Assembly (NCBI GenBank): GCA_028689055.1
Contig: JAQTWZ010000012.1
Location: forward strand, 1 to 54,229
Source: Sulfurimonas sp.
GTDB lineage: Bacteria; Campylobacterota; Campylobacteria; Campylobacterales; Sulfurimonadaceae
Length of the DNA: 54,229 nucleotides
Direction: 5' to 3'
Shown here: positions 43,727 to 53,566 of the stretch, piece after piece
Position numbering within the stretch: position 1 is the first letter of the stretch
How the letters are laid out: the number at the start of each line of letters is the position of its first letter
Made by a program: the position numbers and the translations under genes
The notes under the pieces: generated by a model
Told to the model about the DNA's origin: nothing
The model's database searches: none
Seen by the model: the letters and a program-made list of their open reading frames with translations, nothing else

Positions 43727-44620
43727 TCATCTCTCCAACCTCTTCAAAATATCAAAACTCTCCATATCAAACTTAGAAAAGGCGAACCATTTTTTGCCTA
43801 AATCTTTGAGGCTTGCTCCTATGTGGTAGAGTTCTTTACTATCAAGGATGAGAAATCTGTCATGTGAGGCATCGAATTTTTTGAGGGTGATTTTTGGGTA
43901 TTGGGCGTTGTGTTTTTTGATATCTAGTTCTAACTGCGCGGTGATGTTTTTGGTGTAGATGGCGACGCTTACATCTGCTTGCCTTTTTGAGAGCATGGTT
44001 AAAACGCTCTCATCGAGGTAGTTGTCCACAAGCATTATGCTCTTTTTGGCACTTTTGATAAGATTTGAGACGAAGAGATAGGCATCGTAAACCTCTCCGT
44101 CATAAAAGATGCCTTGTGTTGGTTGGATGGATTTTGCTTCTATGGCTTCAAATAGTTTGTTGAATTTTCCATCTGTTTGGAGTTGTTTCTCTTTCACTTT
44201 GGTTTGAAGAAGTTTCAAATCATTTGCTAAAAGAGTTATTTTCTGCTCTGTGAGTTTTGCACTGTTTAACGCATATCCGTTTTGAATATAGTTTTTAAGA
44301 ACCCCATTTGCCCACTGTCTAAATTTTGTTGCTTTTTTTGAGTTGACTCTGTATCCCACCGAGATAATCATGTCAAGATTATAAAAGTTCATATTTCGTA
44401 GTTTGCCATCTGGTGCAAGTTGTTCCAAAATGGAACAGGTTCTGTTTTTACTCAGTTCATCAGTTTTGTAAATATTTCCGATGTGCTTCACGATTGCTGG
44501 ACGGTTCACGCCAAATATACTTGCTATATCGTTTGCACTGAGCCATATATCATTCTCATTGAGAGAAATTTTAAGTTCAATTTCTCCCGTATTGTATATG
44601 ACTACATCTGTAGATTGCAT
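43727..44620 (-). CDS. RhuM-family protein with a C-terminal phospholipase D-like part
   Basis: A 297 residue protein. Residues 1-120 match the RhuM/Fic-island type N-terminus: IWLSANDIASIFGVNRPAIV, then HIGNIYKTDEL, YNLDMIISVGYRVNSKKATK and FRQWANGVLKNYI. A coiled-coil linker follows. Residues about 175-297 read like a PLD-fold module, with SIMLVDNYLDESVL and HDRFLILDSKELYHIGAS. RhuM genes travel on islands and near restriction or toxin genes. The function is unsettled. AAGGAAAA precedes the ATG. It lies between the IS and a leftover sbcC end. Confidence 0.8.
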   Translation of the reverse strand: MQSTDVVIYNTGEIELKISLNENDIWLSANDIASIFGVNRPAIVKHIGNIYKTDELSKNRTCSILEQLAPDGKLRNMNFYNLDMIISVGYRVNSKKATKFRQWANGVLKNYIQNGYALNSAKLTEQKITLLANDLKLLQTKVKEKQLQTDGKFNKLFEAIEAKSIQPTQGIFYDGEVYDAYLFVSNLIKSAKKSIMLVDNYLDESVLTMLSKRQADVSVAIYTKNITAQLELDIKKHNAQYPKITLKKFDASHDRFLILDSKELYHIGASLKDLGKKWFAFSKFDMESFDILKRLER

Positions 44621-44703
44621 CGATTTTCCTTAAGACTTTTATTTATCATGGCATAAAAAAATGGTTTTATTTAAAATATGACATTTTGAAATAATTTTAA
44701 ATT

Positions 44704-44825
44704 TTATAGTTCCACAAGCCGCTCAAACATCTCCTTAATCTCCATCTCGTGGCTGATTAAAAATATCTGTCGGTATTGCTCTTATAGGCTGGATGGCTTC
44801 GAGTATTTTTATACGTTTTAGCTTA
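44704..44825 (-). pseudogene. Leftover 3' end of an sbcC gene (long copy)
   Basis: About 120 bases resembling the last 40 codons of the intact sbcC (45867-45990) at roughly 80-85 percent by eye. The end codes ISHEMEIKEMFERLVEL and a TAA. A one-base loss near 44776 breaks the frame upstream. It is a different allele from the intact gene, so it is not a recent duplicate. Confidence 0.75.
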
Positions 44826-44841
44826 TATATGCTCAGTAAAA

Positions 44842-44871
44842 TTCTGAATATTCTAGCTAAAATATTCAGAA
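44842..44871. repeat. Perfect 11 bp inverted repeat upstream of dinD
   Basis: TTCTGAATATT and AATATTCAGAA are separated by 8 bases, with further partial pairing outside (TATATGCT and AGCATATA). The position, about 100 bases before dinD and just after the sbcC remnant, fits a transcription stop or an operator. Confidence 0.5.
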
Positions 44872-44972
44872 TAAGCATATAAATAAATAATATATGGCAA
44901 ATTGCAATGCATTCAACAAGTTATTATTTTTTTAGATAGTATATTTTAAATTGATTGTTTTGGAGTTTTGAG

Positions 44973-45812
44973 ATGATAGAAAGAGAACTTATCCATAGCT
45001 TGATGAAAAAATTTGAAGAGTTTTCAAATAAGACAGATGAAGGTATTGAATTTTGGTTGGCTAGAGATTTACAACATCTTTTGGGATATAAAGAGTGGCG
45101 TAATTTTCAAAATATTATCGCAAAAGCGAAAACTGCTTGTGAAATATCTGGGCAAAATATTTTAGACCATTTTGTTGACATTAACAAAATGGTCGAGATA
45201 GGTTCCGGTGCGCTAAAAGAAGTAGATGACATGATGCTCACTCGTTATGCTTGTTACCTCATAGCTCAAAATGGAGACAGTAAAAAAGAGCAGATAGCTT
45301 TTGCCCAAACATACTTTGCAATTCAAAGTAGAAAAGCTGAACTCATCGAGCAACGATTGCTCGAATATGAAAGAGTCCAAGCGAGACACAAACTTGCTCA
45401 AACTGAAAAAGAACTCTCAAAAGTCATCTATGAACAAACTGGGAAAAATGAAAACTTTGCACTTATAAGGAGCAAAGGAGACCAAGCACTTTTTAGCCGA
45501 ACAACTGCACAGATGAAAGAAAAGTGGAAAATCATCAACAAGCCTTTGGCTGATTTTATGCCTACCATTTTGCTCAAGGCAAAAGATTTTGCAACGGAGA
45601 TCACCATCTACAATGCAAAAGAAAAAAACATGAGTAGCGAGAGTGAAATTTCAAATGAACATATTACAAATAACAAGGCAGTGCGAGATACATTACTCTC
45701 TCGTGGCATCACTCCTGAAAATATAAAGCCTCAAGAAGATATAAAAAAAGTTGAGCGAAAACTCAAGGCTGAAAATAAAAAAGCTTTAGACGCAAAAGAT
45801 AGTTTAAAGTAG
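44973..45812 (+). CDS. dinD: DNA damage-inducible protein D (DinD)
   Basis: 279 residues from the ATG at 44973, preceded by GGAG. The frame is open to a TTG at 44955. It shows the BRO/DinD-type N-terminus EFWLARDLQHLLGYKEWRNF, then DMMLTRYACYLIAQNGDSKK, FAQTYFAIQSRKAELIEQRL, and the C-terminal DinD region with LIRSKGDQALFSR and KPLADFMPTI. In E. coli DinD inhibits RecA strand exchange. No LexA box was identified. It lies directly after the end of sbcC, transcribed towards it, in imported DNA. Confidence 0.88.
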   Translation: MIERELIHSLMKKFEEFSNKTDEGIEFWLARDLQHLLGYKEWRNFQNIIAKAKTACEISGQNILDHFVDINKMVEIGSGALKEVDDMMLTRYACYLIAQNGDSKKEQIAFAQTYFAIQSRKAELIEQRLLEYERVQARHKLAQTEKELSKVIYEQTGKNENFALIRSKGDQALFSRTTAQMKEKWKIINKPLADFMPTILLKAKDFATEITIYNAKEKNMSSESEISNEHITNNKAVRDTLLSRGITPENIKPQEDIKKVERKLKAENKKALDAKDSLK

Positions 45813-45866: not shown

Positions 45867-48236
45867 CTAAAGCTCCACAACCCGCTCAAACATCTCCTTT
45901 ATCTCCATCTCGTGGCTTATCAGAAATATCTGTCGGTATTGCTCTTTTATGGTGTGGAAGGCTTCTAGTATCTCCATCCTTCTTGCTTCATCTTGACTTC
46001 CGAAGACTTCATCAAACGCTAAAAATCCTACACTTGTCGCACCGCTGAGTTCCGTGAGCGTTTTACTTATGGCGATGCGTAGGACTAGGTTTGCTAGGTC
46101 TATTTCTCCGCCGCTAAATCTTTCTATCGGGTATTTTTTGCCCTCGTCGTAGATGAAAAAGTCGAAGTCGTTGCTTACTTCGATGTGCTGGTATTTGCCT
46201 TTGGTTATTTGGGCGTACATCTCTGAAGCGATACTAGAGATGCGCGGTGCGACTTTTGCATTGAGGCGGGTTTTGAACTCCGCTAGGCTTGTTTTTATCT
46301 TGTCGTAGTCTATGAGATCGTCTTTTTTTGTTTGGACTTTTTTGAGCTGCGTTTCGTTGTTATCGACTGCGTTTTGGATGGTCTTTATCTCGCCGAGGAT
46401 CGTGGCGATTTGCACTTTGAGTTCGTTTATCTCTGTACTCTGCGCCTCTCTTGTTTTTGCTATTTCGAGTGCTTCAAGCTCTTTGGTTTTGTGCTGCGTT
46501 TCATCGTAATGCACCATCTCAAACGCAGCCTCTTTGCTCTGATGTGTTGTGCCCAGTTCTGCGATTTTTTTGCTAAGCGTTTCAAGTTCAGATTTAAGAG
46601 CAGGGCTGCGTTTGAGTTCCGTCTCCAGACTCAGAGCGTGTTTGTATTTTGGTTCGAGTGCGGCGAAAGAGTTTTGCAGTTCTTTGTGTTGCTCTGCATC
46701 ATAGCTGCAGTGTTCAAGCGCTTGCAGTTCTGTTTTGTTTTGCAGACCTTTTTGCTCTACTATTTTGAAATACTCCTGCGCTTTTACGAGGTCTTTCATC
46801 TTGCTTTGGACTATGTTGAGATTTTTACTCAGCTCCACAAACTCTTTGTCTTTGAGTTTCTTCTGCGTTTCATACTCGGCTTTTTGCGTTTGGATGTTCA
46901 TGAGCTGTTTTTTGTATTCGTCTATTTTGACTTGGTGCGTGTCGTTGACTATGCCCACAAGAGCGCGCATGACATTGTCGTACTCTTCTAGCAGCGGTCT
47001 GGTGCAGGTAGGGCACGCAGACTCACTGCCGAGCTCTTTTAGTTTTTCTATCTTTTTATTTGTAAGTTCTATCTGCTTTTGTTCGCCCGCTATTTCGGCC
47101 AAAAGTTCGCGTTCTATGGTGTGTCTGTTTTTGATATTTTCATCAAATCCCGCAAGTGTGAACTCCAGATTTTTGAGGTTAAACGCAAGTTCCTCATGCG
47201 CTTCGCACTCTTTTTCAAGCGTCGTGATATCGGCTTTGCTTTTTGTATATTGTTCTCTGAGATTTGCCTGCTCTTTGAGAATGCCTTCTTTTTTGAGCTG
47301 GATTTCCTTGCGTTTTTCCTCTTCTTTGAGCGCTGTTTGAAGTTTTGCGTATGTCTCTTTGATATCGCCAAGTTTTGTGAGTTCGTGCTCTTTTTTTTCT
47401 AGCTCATGGAGCTCATGTACCAGCTTAGTTTGATTTGTACTTTGCGCTGTGATGGAGTTTTTGAGTAGTGCTATCTCACTTTGGAGTTTTTGTTTTTCTT
47501 CTTTGGTCTTTGCAAAAGCCTCAAGCTGCGTTTTACTTTCTAGCTCTTTGACTCGCGTTTGGTTTAACGCTATAGTTTTTAGCTCTGTCTCTTTCATGAG
47601 CGCTGCGTTTTGCGCCTCTTTTTCTTTGACTGCGTTTTTATGATGTGTGAGCTCTTCTTCGCCGAGCAATACTTCGGCAAACGCAGCTATCTCGCGTTTG
47701 AGTTCACGGCTTTTTTCTATGAGAATATTTTCTATAAAGTCGATTTTTTCCAGTCCCAAAAGCTTGCGAATCATCTTTTTTCTATCTTCATTTTTGAGTG
47801 TGCTCAGACTTGAGAGTTCTTTTTGAGAGGCAAAAAGCGTGTGCATAAAAGCATCTTTACTCATCTTTGTGAGTTTGATGATAGCGGCGGTGACCTCTTT
47901 TGCGCCCGTAGTAGTGAGCTCTGCGTTTTTGTAGAGTTTGGCGTTTGCGCTGAGTGCTTTGCCGCGAAACTCACGCACGACTTTGTACTCCAAGCCCTCA
48001 AACTCAAAGTCGAGTTCTACGACTACGGCATCTTTTGGAGTTGCGTTTGCGTTTTTGATGAGCTCTTTGTTGCCTCTGTTTTTTGCTTCACCGTAGAGCG
48101 CAAAAAGTATCGCTTCAAAAAGAGTCGATTTGCCGCTGCCGTTTTTGCCGATGATACCGATGAGTCCTTCGCCGAACTCTATCTCGTAAGCGGTGTATTT
48201 TTTGAAGTTTTCAAGGTGGAGTTTAGAGAGTATCAT
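45867..48236 (-). CDS. sbcC: Exonuclease SbcC (Rad50-like ATPase subunit)
   Basis: SMC-like ATPase that works with SbcD in processing DNA ends and hairpins. It has 789 residues, shorter than the 1048 of E. coli but normal for this phylum. Walker A is GIIGKNGSGKST near 29-40, two long coiled-coil arms meet at the zinc hook ACPTC (about 411), the ABC signature is RFSGGEIDLANL, and Walker B is FLAFDEVFGSQDEARR. TAAGGA precedes the ATG, supplied by the end of the HNH gene. The octamer AAACGCAG or its complement occurs more than ten times, unlike in the two genes upstream. Confidence 0.95.
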   Translation of the reverse strand: MILSKLHLENFKKYTAYEIEFGEGLIGIIGKNGSGKSTLFEAILFALYGEAKNRGNKELIKNANATPKDAVVVELDFEFEGLEYKVVREFRGKALSANAKLYKNAELTTTGAKEVTAAIIKLTKMSKDAFMHTLFASQKELSSLSTLKNEDRKKMIRKLLGLEKIDFIENILIEKSRELKREIAAFAEVLLGEEELTHHKNAVKEKEAQNAALMKETELKTIALNQTRVKELESKTQLEAFAKTKEEKQKLQSEIALLKNSITAQSTNQTKLVHELHELEKKEHELTKLGDIKETYAKLQTALKEEEKRKEIQLKKEGILKEQANLREQYTKSKADITTLEKECEAHEELAFNLKNLEFTLAGFDENIKNRHTIERELLAEIAGEQKQIELTNKKIEKLKELGSESACPTCTRPLLEEYDNVMRALVGIVNDTHQVKIDEYKKQLMNIQTQKAEYETQKKLKDKEFVELSKNLNIVQSKMKDLVKAQEYFKIVEQKGLQNKTELQALEHCSYDAEQHKELQNSFAALEPKYKHALSLETELKRSPALKSELETLSKKIAELGTTHQSKEAAFEMVHYDETQHKTKELEALEIAKTREAQSTEINELKVQIATILGEIKTIQNAVDNNETQLKKVQTKKDDLIDYDKIKTSLAEFKTRLNAKVAPRISSIASEMYAQITKGKYQHIEVSNDFDFFIYDEGKKYPIERFSGGEIDLANLVLRIAISKTLTELSGATSVGFLAFDEVFGSQDEARRMEILEAFHTIKEQYRQIFLISHEMEIKEMFERVVEL

Positions 48237-48240
48237 CGCT
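48232..48240 (-). repeat. 9 bp direct repeat at the sbcC-side edge of the cassette
   Basis: AGCGATGAT on the minus strand includes the sbcC start codon. The identical 9 bases occur at 52427-52435, where they include the start codon of the ATPase gene and the end of sbcD. The two copies enclose the ATPase-HNH cassette. Confidence 0.65.
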
Positions 48241-48247
48241 TATTTCC

Positions 48248-49354
48248 TTACACATAAATATCCCTTTTTAATTTTGTAAAAGGCTCTTCTTGCAGTTCAC
48301 CTTCAAAAATTTCTTTGCCAAATAAATCTTTTTCTATTTCTTTTTTTGATTTGCCTACTATCTTTGAAATTTCATCAATTCTTGAATTACTATAATCCTG
48401 CTTTTTATTTAAAAGTTCCAAGATTATATTTTTATGGTACCTGTATCTATCATTCAGTTTAAATATCTTTATATAATCATCAAATAAATTTTCATTATCT
48501 TTTAATAATACATCTATATCATCTATTGATTTAACGGTTAAATCAGTTACAGCGCTAGAAAACAAAAGTTTAAATTTTACTTTTTCGTCAAAATGAAATC
48601 CTGAGTGTGTTGGGCTTTTGTAATGTTCTAAACTATTATTTGTGAACTGCTCTGATTTTTTAAATTTTGAGTTGCAAGAGTAGCACGATGGGACAAAGTT
48701 AAATAGTGAAAGAGCCACTATTGGATTTGTTGCTTTATCTATTACATGGTCAAGTGTAAAATGATTTTTTTGAATATACTGAGGATAACTTTGATTGTTT
48801 ATTGTTTCAATTATTTCATCTAAATTTTGAATTTTCTTTGAGTTAAGTTTCTGTTGAAAATCATCTACAGATATATAAGGTCTTATTGCATCAATTTTTT
48901 TAAAAGTAGCCTCACCAACATTTGAGATTTTGGTAAATATTTCTTGATTTGCATTGTTGATAAAATCCAACTTATTGGGATAGTTATCACTTACAAAAGC
49001 ATTAATGTAGTCAATATTGCAATAATAACAAGTTGAAAGTTTCATTTCACTTTTGTATTTCATAAAAAAATTTGCTATTTGAGGTTGATATTTATCATAA
49101 TCAAATATCTTTTTCAATTTATAAAGTTTTATCTTATTTTTAATATCAGAAATAGGATAAGCAATCTTTAACGATTTGTCTAGTAAAAAATTAAAATCTC
49201 CTTTCAATATATCCTGAACTGTAAAATTACAATTTTGCAAGTTATAAGTAGTTTTATAAGTGTTCCAATCTTGTTCTAATTGAACTAAATCGAAAATAGC
49301 TAAATACTCATTAACAAAATCAGATGAGCTGTGAGGATATTTAATTTGTATCAT
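48248..49354 (-). CDS. HNH endonuclease of the cassette inside sbcDC
   Basis: A 368 residue protein. CYYC at 109-112 and CYSCNSKFKKSEQF (C224, C227) are two zinc-binding pairs that frame HFTLDHVIDK (D202, H203), which gives an HNH/McrA-type nuclease core with N228. The layout resembles PtuB-like nucleases of Septu and some retrons, but those are usually shorter and this N-terminal 100 residue part is not recognised. It starts in the stop codon of the ATPase gene (TAATG) with GAGGAA upstream. sbcC follows after 11 bases. The gene is AT-rich and lacks the host octamer. An antiphage role is inferred. Confidence 0.8.
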   Translation of the reverse strand: MIQIKYPHSSSDFVNEYLAIFDLVQLEQDWNTYKTTYNLQNCNFTVQDILKGDFNFLLDKSLKIAYPISDIKNKIKLYKLKKIFDYDKYQPQIANFFMKYKSEMKLSTCYYCNIDYINAFVSDNYPNKLDFINNANQEIFTKISNVGEATFKKIDAIRPYISVDDFQQKLNSKKIQNLDEIIETINNQSYPQYIQKNHFTLDHVIDKATNPIVALSLFNFVPSCYSCNSKFKKSEQFTNNSLEHYKSPTHSGFHFDEKVKFKLLFSSAVTDLTVKSIDDIDVLLKDNENLFDDYIKIFKLNDRYRYHKNIILELLNKKQDYSNSRIDEISKIVGKSKKEIEKDLFGKEIFEGELQEEPFTKLKRDIYV

Positions 49355-52300
49355 TAGGATTCCTCTTCTAATTTCGCTAGCTCATCCCTTAAAGCCTTTA
49401 TTCGTTGAGTTCTGAAGTCATTTTCAACTAATTTGTTTTCAATCTCATCAATGTGATTTTGAATAATATTTGATATATATTTCTCACCTATACTATTCTG
49501 AATAAAATGGAATCGTTGCTTCTTCTCTTGATACTTTTCTTGTAAACTTAATATTTTAGTTTTATCTGTCCGTATGACTGCATCATAAAAGTTTACAATT
49601 TCTTTTATTGTTTCTAATGCAAACTCACCTATGGAATTTTGCATAAAAAATCCATTTATTAGGAGCTCATGAATATTTGCACCAAAGGTTTTAACACCTT
49701 CTACGGAAAGACTTTTTGCATTAATGCTATCATTTTTTTTATCTAAAAAAAGTATCTTAGTATCAGGAATATCAGAGAGTATAAAAGGCGAATGAGTTAC
49801 AAATAAAATATTAATCGCTAATATTTTATTTGTATCAGCTTTAGATATAGCATGTCTAAGATGTTTTAAATACTGTCTTTGAAGTTCAGGATGAAAATAT
49901 AACTCTATCTCATCTAAAATAATATTGACATAACCATATTTTGTTGATTTTTCATCTACTGAGTTAATATTATTTAAATGATATAAAATTGAATTTACTG
50001 AGTATATTTTTTGTTTTTCACCAGAGCTTAAAGTATTGAAATTTATATTATTCTCAAGGATAATTTCCACATCAAAAAAAGCTGGTGCTATTAGCTCGTT
50101 AGTTGTTAGTTCTTCTGCGGTATGTTTTTCTTTAAACTCTTCAATTCTTTTTGATAATTCTTCTATATTGAACTGCTGTTCGGTTTCAACTTTTTGGATT
50201 AATGTATCAAATCTCAAAAAATATAGAGCTTGTTTAAGTTTATAGCATATATGACTTTTGTCTTCATAAATTTCATTTACACATGCTTGAAGATTTTGAA
50301 ATGTAGATGTTTGAGTATTAAAATAGTCTTGATATTTCTCATATCGAATAACGATGCTAACCAATTTTTTCAATACATAAAGATGAACTTTATCTTCAAA
50401 TGTATATGAACTAAAATTATCATTTCGAAAATGTTTTGTTGGTAATACGCGTACTCCAAATTTTTCATATAATAGACGAAGAGTATCAATATAGCTATGT
50501 TCAAATGCACCAAATGTTATCATGATTTTATTTTCTTCGTCTCTATAAATATGTTTAAGAAGTATTTGTTTGATTTCATCTGTTTTATAAAATATTTTAT
50601 TTAGATTAAAAGTAAATTTTAAAGCTTCTGCTCTATAAAATTCTGTTAATTGCCTAGGGCTGTTTTTAATGTCATCTAAGTCTTCTTTTAATAGTAAATT
50701 ACTCAATAATCTTCGTTTGATTAGCTCTTCTTGTCTGTTAACATCTATGTTTCCATCTTTTCTATACGGTTCAATGACTATGGGGGTTTTGTAGCTATCA
50801 TTTTTATGAAATAGACTATGAATCCAATCACCAAGAGTTAATTTGTTAAATGAGTGTTGTGAATAATTTACGGCTATGGTGTAACAAAACTCTCTGATGT
50901 CATATGAGCTTGTACAATCTATGTATTGATTGTTTTTTTCATCATATTTAAAAACTTCCAATAATTGATTATTTAAATGTATTTTATAAATATATTGACT
51001 TCGATAAATCAATTCAATATTTAAATTTTTTATTGGATTGAGATTAGGATTTAGATTTTGAAGATGTGACATATCGTGTATCAATGCAAATATCAACTCA
51101 ACTATAGTACTTTTCCCTGTACCATTTTTTCCAACAATAGCATTTATATTCAAATTGACATTGGTTAAATTAAATAAAGATATATTTTTATTTTCATCAA
51201 TAAAAATTTTGTCATCTTTTATACTATAAGCATGGTCAAAAATATAGTATTCATTTTCTGTAAGAGTTTTTACATAATCTGGGCTACATCCCTTATGAGC
51301 TTTTATTGCAATAAGTTTAAAGTCATTAGAACTTGAAATTATGGTCTCTGAACTATCACTCTCAGCTATTCCTAAATATACATCCAACTCATCTTTTTCG
51401 TAATAACTAAGCTTTTCAAGCTTATTATCATCATACGCAACGAGAACTAAGCTGATATAGAGTTTTGTGTTTTGTTTTGTGAGCAAACCCTTATATTCAC
51501 TATATGTTTGAGGATAATTAGTTAGTTTACTATACTTGTTTAAAAATACTTCCGTATTTTTATCAAGCGATAAAAAGTTTTTGGCATCTATCCAAAATAA
51601 AAATATAGTAAACGAAGCTATATCAAGACCATGCCAGTTTTGAAGTAAGTTGAAATCTATCTTTGCAGATTGTGAGTTTTTGAATACATCATTAAACATA
51701 TTCCAAATTTCGTTTTGAGCGTCTTTGTTTCTAGCCCCAATTATTTGAGTGATGACTGGAGCTGGACATCCATTGAAATCAATCTCAGGATAATCTTCTT
51801 TGAAGGAAGTATCTAGAAGTCGAAACAATATATTAATTCTTTTAATTCTGTTGTCATTTTTCAGTTTATTGCTGTTGATGCTAGCAAAAATATGTATAGG
51901 GTCTAAACTTTTTATTGTTTCAAAATTATTAATCCATTGGTTGTATTCTACAAATTCTTTATCAGCTTGGAGTTTTGAATATAATAATTCACCTTTCGTT
52001 GTATATTGGGTAAATAGGGTGTTGATATTGTTGAGATAACTTGATAATTTTTTATATACGAAATGCCATTTTGGAGTGTAATGATATTCCATGCGTTCAT
52101 ATTGATTATCTTGAAATTTTAAAAGAGTATCGAATTCTATAGTCATGCTGTCGTAACTAAAACCATCGTTTGGAGTAGAAGCTTCATAGGAACCCGTTGG
52201 ATATTGCTCCTTTAAGATTTGTAAAACATCTTCATTATCTGTATAAATATTACCTTTATAATAATAGAGAATAAAATGCGTGCTTAATTGTGTCGCTATC

Positions 52301-52431
52301 CGCTGTGCCAAATCTTTAAGTCGTAAACCTCTACCTTCATATTCTGCTATAGTGTAGTGTTCAGTATTTTTAATGGTACCACTTGCTCTCATACCAATAT
52401 TAACGAATTGGTTTTTATTAATATTAATCAT
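49354..52431 (-). CDS. Large ABC/AAA-type ATPase of the cassette inside sbcDC
   Basis: A 1025 residue protein. The P-loop IVGKNGTGKST lies at 432-442, unusually far from the N-terminus. The ABC signature LSSGEKQ is at 801-807, Walker B IILDEIELYFHPEL at 837-850 and the His switch VTHSPFILSD around 878-887. Residues 1-415 have no recognised domain and could be the sensor. The insert between P-loop and signature is long and helical, and the C-terminus (950-1025) is coiled-coil. The head is like RecF/OLD/PtuA-type defence ATPases. AGGAGGTGA, inside the end of sbcD, precedes the ATG. The partner is the HNH protein. Confidence 0.82.
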   Translation of the reverse strand: MININKNQFVNIGMRASGTIKNTEHYTIAEYEGRGLRLKDLAQRIATQLSTHFILYYYKGNIYTDNEDVLQILKEQYPTGSYEASTPNDGFSYDSMTIEFDTLLKFQDNQYERMEYHYTPKWHFVYKKLSSYLNNINTLFTQYTTKGELLYSKLQADKEFVEYNQWINNFETIKSLDPIHIFASINSNKLKNDNRIKRINILFRLLDTSFKEDYPEIDFNGCPAPVITQIIGARNKDAQNEIWNMFNDVFKNSQSAKIDFNLLQNWHGLDIASFTIFLFWIDAKNFLSLDKNTEVFLNKYSKLTNYPQTYSEYKGLLTKQNTKLYISLVLVAYDDNKLEKLSYYEKDELDVYLGIAESDSSETIISSSNDFKLIAIKAHKGCSPDYVKTLTENEYYIFDHAYSIKDDKIFIDENKNISLFNLTNVNLNINAIVGKNGTGKSTIVELIFALIHDMSHLQNLNPNLNPIKNLNIELIYRSQYIYKIHLNNQLLEVFKYDEKNNQYIDCTSSYDIREFCYTIAVNYSQHSFNKLTLGDWIHSLFHKNDSYKTPIVIEPYRKDGNIDVNRQEELIKRRLLSNLLLKEDLDDIKNSPRQLTEFYRAEALKFTFNLNKIFYKTDEIKQILLKHIYRDEENKIMITFGAFEHSYIDTLRLLYEKFGVRVLPTKHFRNDNFSSYTFEDKVHLYVLKKLVSIVIRYEKYQDYFNTQTSTFQNLQACVNEIYEDKSHICYKLKQALYFLRFDTLIQKVETEQQFNIEELSKRIEEFKEKHTAEELTTNELIAPAFFDVEIILENNINFNTLSSGEKQKIYSVNSILYHLNNINSVDEKSTKYGYVNIILDEIELYFHPELQRQYLKHLRHAISKADTNKILAINILFVTHSPFILSDIPDTKILFLDKKNDSINAKSLSVEGVKTFGANIHELLINGFFMQNSIGEFALETIKEIVNFYDAVIRTDKTKILSLQEKYQEKKQRFHFIQNSIGEKYISNIIQNHIDEIENKLVENDFRTQRIKALRDELAKLEEES

Positions 52432-53566
52432 CGCTCACCTCCTCATACGCGCTAAAGAGCTCTTGTATCTTGCCCTTGAGGCGCTCGTACTCTTTGGCAT
52501 CTGCATCTTCTTTGATGTGTTCAAGAAAATGATTTTCCAGCGACAAAACCTCTATATCATCGACTATACCTGCGTTTTGGCTGCGTTTAAACTCGCGTTT
52601 GACACTCACAAACATTGCTTCGGGGAAGAGTTTTTTTATCTCTGCGTTTTGGATATCTATGGATTGCAGGGCGGTGAGATTTGTGAGTTTTACTTCGACT
52701 ATTGCGTTTGCTGTATCACTTGTATCTACATTTGAGGCTGCGTTTTCATACGCTTCGCAGTCTATCTCTCTTTGGAGGATAGGGCGGATTTGTATCTCTT
52801 TGTACTCTACATGAGCGGCATCAAAAAGTGAAGGCGTTTTTGCGTTTGCACCATCAAGCGTGACGAGGATGAAGCCTTTGGAGTTGCGTTTGTCGCCCAG
52901 ACTTGTACGCTCGGTAGAGCCGCTGTAATAGACATTTTCATGTTTGCCCACCGCGCCAAATCCGTGCCAATGACCCAAAGCCACATAGTCCATCATCTTG
53001 AAGATATACTCTTTTTCACTCGGATAGACCCACTCGCCAAACTCCTGCATCAGGTACCACGCTCCGACTGAGCAGTGCATCATCATGATATTTTTTTTGC
53101 TTTTATGGACATTTTCTTCACACAGTTCTATCTGTGAGAGCGCCTGCGTTTCGTCGTTCATGTGCGGCAGAGTGTGGAAGATGACATCAGCAAACTCTAT
53201 CATTTTGTACGTTTGATCGTAGGAGAGATAGATATTCTCAAACCCTTCAAATATCTTCAAAATCGGAGCGCTCATGTTGGTTCTGGGAGTAGAATGGTTG
53301 CCTGCGATGAGGATAAAAGGGATGTTCAAAGAGTTGATGATCCCAAACTGCTCCAGCGCAAAAGCGATGGCACGGTTGGATGGACTTGCACGGTGAAAAA
53401 GGTCGCCCGTGTGGATGATATAGTCAGGTCGTATCTCTTGTATCTGCGTCACAACCTGAGCAAACGCATCATAAAAATCCGCCTCTCTTTGGTTGATATT
53501 TTCTGCGTTTAGAACCTCTAAGTCGTTGTATCCTAAGTGCGTATCGCTAAAGTGGAGTATTTTCAC
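52424..53566 (-). CDS. sbcD: Exonuclease SbcD (Mre11-like nuclease subunit)
   Basis: Metal-dependent phosphodiesterase subunit of SbcCD. The 380 residues have the Mre11 motifs HFSDTHLGYND, HTGDLFHRASPSNRA, LIAGNHSTPRT, MMHCSVGAW and GHWHGFG, then the capping and SbcC-binding region. The start is GTG at 53566, with AGGAGCTCAT directly upstream. Its stop lies 8 bases inside the ATPase gene. If the foreign cassette is removed at the 9 bp repeat, the frame would continue to S-D-D-T-L and a TAA inside sbcC, giving a normal short sbcD/sbcC overlap. The octamer CTGCGTTT or its complement is frequent. Confidence 0.95.
   Translation of the reverse strand: MKILHFSDTHLGYNDLEVLNAENINQREADFYDAFAQVVTQIQEIRPDYIIHTGDLFHRASPSNRAIAFALEQFGIINSLNIPFILIAGNHSTPRTNMSAPILKIFEGFENIYLSYDQTYKMIEFADVIFHTLPHMNDETQALSQIELCEENVHKSKKNIMMMHCSVGAWYLMQEFGEWVYPSEKEYIFKMMDYVALGHWHGFGAVGKHENVYYSGSTERTSLGDKRNSKGFILVTLDGANAKTPSLFDAAHVEYKEIQIRPILQREIDCEAYENAASNVDTSDTANAIVEVKLTNLTALQSIDIQNAEIKKLFPEAMFVSVKREFKRSQNAGIVDDIEVLSLENHFLEHIKEDADAKEYERLKGKIQELFSAYEEVSDD
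52427..52435 (-). repeat. 9 bp direct repeat at the sbcD-side edge of the cassette
   Basis: AGCGATGAT on the minus strand, identical to 48232-48240. It marks the other edge of the ATPase-HNH insertion. Confidence 0.65.

Follow-up and report, generated by a model that had tools for sequence, protein, structure and literature searches.

A Septu-like candidate defence cassette inserted at the start of sbcC in a Sulfurimonas genome

Two genes of foreign composition lie between sbcD and sbcC on a Sulfurimonas contig, and the locus raises the question of how they came to be there, what they encode and whether they have anything to do with SbcCD. The stretch of DNA analysed, referred to below as the window, is 54,229 nucleotides long, and the features of the locus are given in Table 1. 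On the minus strand the order is sbcD, an ABC-type ATPase gene, an HNH nuclease gene and sbcC. The first two genes overlap by 8 nt, the ATPase and HNH genes overlap by 1 nt, and 11 nt separate the HNH gene from sbcC, so that the order, overlaps and 11-base gap described in an earlier note on this DNA are borne out by the coordinates. The GC content of the cassette genes is 25-28%, against 44-45% for sbcD and sbcC, and their GC3 is 20%, against 49-52%. Immediately downstream of sbcC (43727-45812) are two Bro-N domain genes, one RhuM-like and one DinD-like.

Table 1. Features of the sbcD-sbcC locus, in window coordinates
Feature	Position	Strand	Description
sbcD	52424-53566	-	380 aa; last two residues of relatives (T-L) missing
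AGCGATGAT, left copy	52427-52435	-	Outer imperfect repeat 52427-52451
ABC-type ATPase	49354-52431	-	1025 aa, PDC-M62A-like
ATPase N-terminal domain	51367-52071	-	Residues ~121-355 (DPIHIF...G268...D290KNT), tentatively MagIII-like HhH-GPD glycosylase fold
HNH nuclease	48248-49354	-	368 aa, PDC-M62B-like
HNH protein insert between zinc-knuckle halves	48785-48973	-	Residues ~128-190, weakly ComEA/PsbU-like helix-hairpin-helix
AGCGATGAT, right copy	48232-48240	-	Outer imperfect repeat 48232-48256, includes AAGGA ribosome site
sbcC	45867-48236	-	789 aa

The 9-bp repeat that had been reported at both edges of the cassette is indeed found at both, and has no other copy in the window. Removal of the cassette and one repeat in silico restored an sbcD that ends in S-D-D-T-L and has its stop 14 nt inside sbcC, again as the earlier note had described. 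The same arrangement is seen in relatives. In the 28 members of the genus compared, sbcC starts inside the end of sbcD, and in most of them the native stop lies 14 nt into sbcC. The closest relatives have a single AGCGATGATACTC at the junction, and in G099, the closest by sbcD (85% identity), the junction reads GAGGAGAGCAGCGATGATACTCTCTAA, ie a precise empty site, at base level, with one AGCGATGAT. DNA-level matches of this relative to the region of the two Bro-N genes are short pieces only. A 9-bp match of the kind seen at the cassette edges occurs in only 0.19% of ATG-start pairs and is therefore unlikely to be due to chance. The GC contrast and the empty sites together support the view that a foreign ATPase-HNH cassette was placed precisely at the sbcD/sbcC junction.

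The frequency of such insertions was determined in a phylum sample of 397 genomes, counting operons whose two genes share a contig and taking gaps from match coordinates. Apart from that of the window, 53 complete sbcDC operons (in 51 genomes) were found, and every one is uninterrupted, with a gap between sbcD and sbcC of -5 to +1 nt, compared to 4190 nt in the window genome. The cassette is a true insertion, found in the window genome alone within this sample, and with 53 uninterrupted operons it is a one-off event. The junction as an insertion hotspot was also considered, and is ruled out by the same 53 operons.

The direct repeat extends upstream imperfectly to a total of 25 nt, of which 17 are identical and 8 are transitions, with 0 transversions. 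Likeness of this degree was seen in 1 of 7260 pairs of start-upstream regions, by a criterion picked after seeing the data. The ribosome site for sbcC (TAAGGA), which the earlier note took to be supplied by the cassette, does sit at the cassette edge, but it may not have come from the cassette: the imperfect 25-nt repeat suggests that sbcC now uses a copy of the native site that has diverged. The cassette may have entered by microhomology or by target duplication. Direct repeats exactly at the borders could also be the footprint of a transposon or an integrase-mobilised element. Neither a transposase nor an integrase is encoded between sbcD and sbcC, the only genes there being the two of the cassette; terminal inverted repeats are absent from the cassette (13/30 matches, the random mean being 12.2); and the imperfect repeat seems to be longer than 9 bp. 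On this evidence a mobile-element footprint is very improbable.

In PADLOC the ATPase is best matched by PDC-M62A (1.6e-44, covering residues 399-1012) and the HNH protein by PDC-M62B (1.9e-33), and the two genes are adjacent here as in PDC-M62. The same two models are also the best for the ATPases of four relatives and the HNH proteins of two. In Bacillus cereus genomes, PDC-M62 calls coincide with Septu calls in 203 cases (PMC11811056), which supports the suggestion that the pair is a defence-type system. The ATPase has intact Walker A (G434-T442), signature (L801-Q807), Walker B (I837-E841) and H-loop (H880) motifs, invariant in the four ATPase members aligned. The motifs of the HNH protein are C109xxC112, D202-H203, N219 and C224xxC227N, and C109, C112, D202, H203, N219, C224, C227 and N228 are invariant in 12 members. 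An ABC-type ATPase with Walker A, signature and Walker B motifs thus adjoins an HNH gene, as in Septu (PtuA/PtuB), with the catalytic motifs conserved. In Septu Ec-B88 the Walker A/B and H-N-H residues are required for defence (PMC13096335).

The pair also differs from the known systems. The PDC-M62A match is not full-length: the models are about 600 aa long and residues 1-398 of the ATPase, an extension common to the subfamily, fall outside them. Solved PtuA chains, at about 460-550 aa, likewise lack the extra N-terminal domain, and the ATPase missed the cut-off of the PtuA equivalog NCBIfam NF041760 (48.9 bits against 500). Among solved structures, retron Ec78 and Septu PtuA come closest to the profile of the ATPase, the best matches being to the retron Ec78/Eco7 effector PtuAB (9u9y, 9kjx). 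Unlike those retrons, the cassette has no adjoining reverse transcriptase or msDNA gene; no msr-msd is present, and only two genes separate sbcD from sbcC, so that the make-up of a type I-A retron was not found. The HNH protein differs from PDC-M62 in having an insert with a weak likeness to helix-hairpin-helix domains (HHH_6, 0.033; HHH_3, 0.049, in a relative; PsbU, 0.36). Its predicted structure (pLDDT 47) is of too low confidence for use. By models and motifs, the pair belongs to PDC-M62, a candidate defence system of the Septu-like class, and its function would accordingly be defence.

Residues 1-400 of the ATPase matched 5/397 phylum genomes, including the window's own, and a complete ATPase-HNH pair is found at other locations in three of them (G069, G472 and G544). 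A first scan of genome contigs with a single-protein query gave no match. The collection-wide scan gave 12 loci, mostly from Bacteroidota, with the ATPase gene followed by the HNH gene in 11. As the G544 locus (L086) is present in both collections it was counted once, giving 13 complete pairs besides that of the window (11 loci, G069 and G472), again mostly from Bacteroidota. Among plasmids, phages and viral contigs there was no full-length match to the cassette proteins. In the ATPase tree the window protein falls together with proteins from Terrimonas (Bacteroidota) and from a single congener (G069), not according to host phylogeny, as expected under horizontal transfer. The Terrimonas HNH protein also shares the window protein's insert between the zinc-knuckle halves.

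At least four relatives share an operon with, or adjoin, restriction/modification genes, these being a type ISP restriction gene (L082), type I M and S genes (L083), an Mrr gene (L077) and a C5-methylase gene (L076). A HerA-type helicase is encoded upstream of the cassette in L078. A DUF2779 gene (Pfam) directly follows the HNH gene at L082:11926-13389, and an ORF that looks similar is found just downstream of it at L074:11387-12868; it is possible that this gene is a third component in some members. The G472 cassette occupies a TetR/AraC intergenic spot, and a long direct repeat was not clearly seen at its edges. In the genus of G472, such a TetR/AraC-type regulator spot (L073:9395-13427) is a small variable site, where the inserts differ between genomes or are absent.

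In the earlier note the cassette was proposed to parasitise SbcCD or cooperate with it, perhaps guarding against its inhibition by phages. By layout, the cassette and sbcDC form one transcription unit and are likely to be co-expressed, with translational overlap and the sbcC start site preserved, and phage factors that inhibit SbcCD/Mre11-Rad50 exist, such as TelN of N15 (PMC12624138). The cassette could then be a partner or guard of SbcCD, either firing when phage inhibitors block it or making the ends that it degrades. The arrangement is, however, confined to one genome, and the other complete sbcDC operons of the phylum sample are all free of any insert. Neither sbcD nor sbcC was present in the fetched flanks of any relative, and two of the relatives' host genomes have no sbcD (G069, and G472, in which no more than a remnant of sbcC is left). 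As the arrangement does not recur, the relatives show no such association and some of their hosts lack sbcD, a special link to SbcCD is unsupported and a partnership is improbable; most likely the cassette merely rides the transcription of the operon. Remnants of the sbcC C-terminus alone were observed at G472:C1:322472-322714 and G449:C8:252361-252510, where sbcD was not found, and in G493 and G527 stops fall within the sbcC matches. SbcCD seems to have been lost repeatedly in the phylum.

The extra N-terminal domain of the ATPase, about 235 residues, is common to the subfamily and is not part of the PDC-M62 or Septu models. Residues 121-355 are predicted to be all-helical, mostly with high confidence. 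By sequence, the segment GIxIxSFTIFLFWIDSDNFLPLDKNT resembles the part of HhH-GPD DNA glycosylases that holds the hairpin and the catalytic Asp. The best four PDB matches in Foldseek are MagIII, endonuclease III, MutY and 8-oxoguanine glycosylase, the best E-value being only 0.056, and the HhH-GPD superfamily accounts for 18 among the best 50 matches listed. Alignment to 3n0u with VIA-align gave a weak match (Z 4.6, 139 residues, 4.4 A). A spacing of 22 residues between the hairpin Gly and the conserved Asp was found in each of the 14 members whose motif could be located, exactly the spacing of Nth, MutY and MagIII; D-x-x-T also occurs in MagIII. In profile-profile comparison (hhalign) with MagIII, 1 of 200 column permutations was as good (p about 0.01), and against Nth and MutY the alignments were no better than with permuted columns (55/200 and 88/200 as good). 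In single-sequence searches the PF00730 family HMM matched 0/12 members, and the Pfam and NCBIfam HMM libraries gave no HhH-GPD match in any member. With a 40-column glycosylase PSSM the window protein ranked 74/337, which is not significant, with its best position at the predicted hairpin. A search of a viral fold library found nothing. Taken together, the domain probably has an HhH-GPD fold. It differs from the known glycosylases in being fused to an ATPase and in lacking the catalytic Lys of endonuclease III. At that position Lys is not conserved among the members, and the domain, if it is a glycosylase, would therefore be monofunctional or inactive.

Three side observations concern the same end of the protein. 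The G069 ATPase (L061:5643-9494, 1283 aa) has about 240 further N-terminal residues compared to the window protein. A 1323-aa protein that looks like a KAP-type NTPase (L062:2522-6493) contains 68 residues with 49% identity to residues 13-80 of the window ATPase, suggesting, from the sequence, that this segment may be a swappable N-terminal module. In G123 (Sulfuricurvum-type), the fifth of the phylum genomes matched by residues 1-400, part of the N-terminal domain is instead fused with leucine-rich repeats, in an ORF that exits the contig end (L063:2-1513, minus strand).

The explanation we favour, and consider probable, is a horizontally acquired Septu-like (PDC-M62) anti-phage cassette, inserted once, with a glycosylase-like sensor and an ATPase-HNH effector. 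The cassette would have entered in the window lineage at the sbcC start codon, duplicating a short target stretch, and would now ride sbcDC transcription. The N-terminal domain may inspect incoming DNA for modified or damaged bases, and its engagement would lead to ATP-dependent clamping by the ABC ATPase and activation of the HNH nuclease. The nuclease would then cut nucleic acid, whether the DNA of the phage or, as some Septu and retron PtuAB do, tRNA of the host. SbcCD would have no dedicated role beyond co-expression and could degrade the ends produced. Our best guess is a Septu-like effector to which a sensor of nucleic acid has been joined, with the sensing role of the domain held only tentatively; that members of the subfamily carry a built-in MagIII-type glycosylase domain which recognises modified or damaged phage bases and triggers the effector is a slightly more doubtful proposition.

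Alternatively, the cassette may be a solitary passenger, tolerated since sbcC translation is kept, that cleaves host tRNA in a Septu- or retron-like abortive infection, with the N-terminal domain as a protein- or RNA-binding scaffold. The PtuAB of retron-Eco7 and of Septu Ec-B88 deplete or cleave tRNA-Tyr, cleavage being reported for Ec-B88 (PMC11555353, PMC13096335), and the glycosylase likeness of the domain is individually non-significant by HMM and PSSM. Against a scaffold role are the top fold matches to DNA glycosylases with the identical hairpin-Asp spacing, and the insert of DNA-binding type, if a weak one, in the HNH protein. We consider a tRNA-cleaving passenger somewhat unlikely, and prefer the sensor-effector cassette.

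The locus documents, at base level, a candidate defence cassette that entered the overlap between two core repair genes and broke neither. Its striking position reflects one event, and does not mark a system that needs SbcCD. The locus singles out a small subfamily, in Campylobacterota and Bacteroidota and often beside restriction genes, in which the front domain of the ATPase might sense DNA bases. The anti-phage glycosylases Brig1 and Brig3 (PMC11078745, PMC13160076) have in common with it the idea of a glycosylase that recognises modified phage bases. Both are stand-alone and belong to the uracil-DNA-glycosylase superfamily, unlike the domain described here, and a search for HhH-GPD domains in defence, or for a glycosylase with an ATPase and HNH nuclease, found nothing relevant in the literature. 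A glycosylase-like domain joined to a Septu-like effector would thus, if confirmed, extend a known type of system: base-excision recognition would be fused to such an effector, a combination not described in the literature searched. The subfamily raises the question of what triggers Septu-like ATPase-HNH systems.
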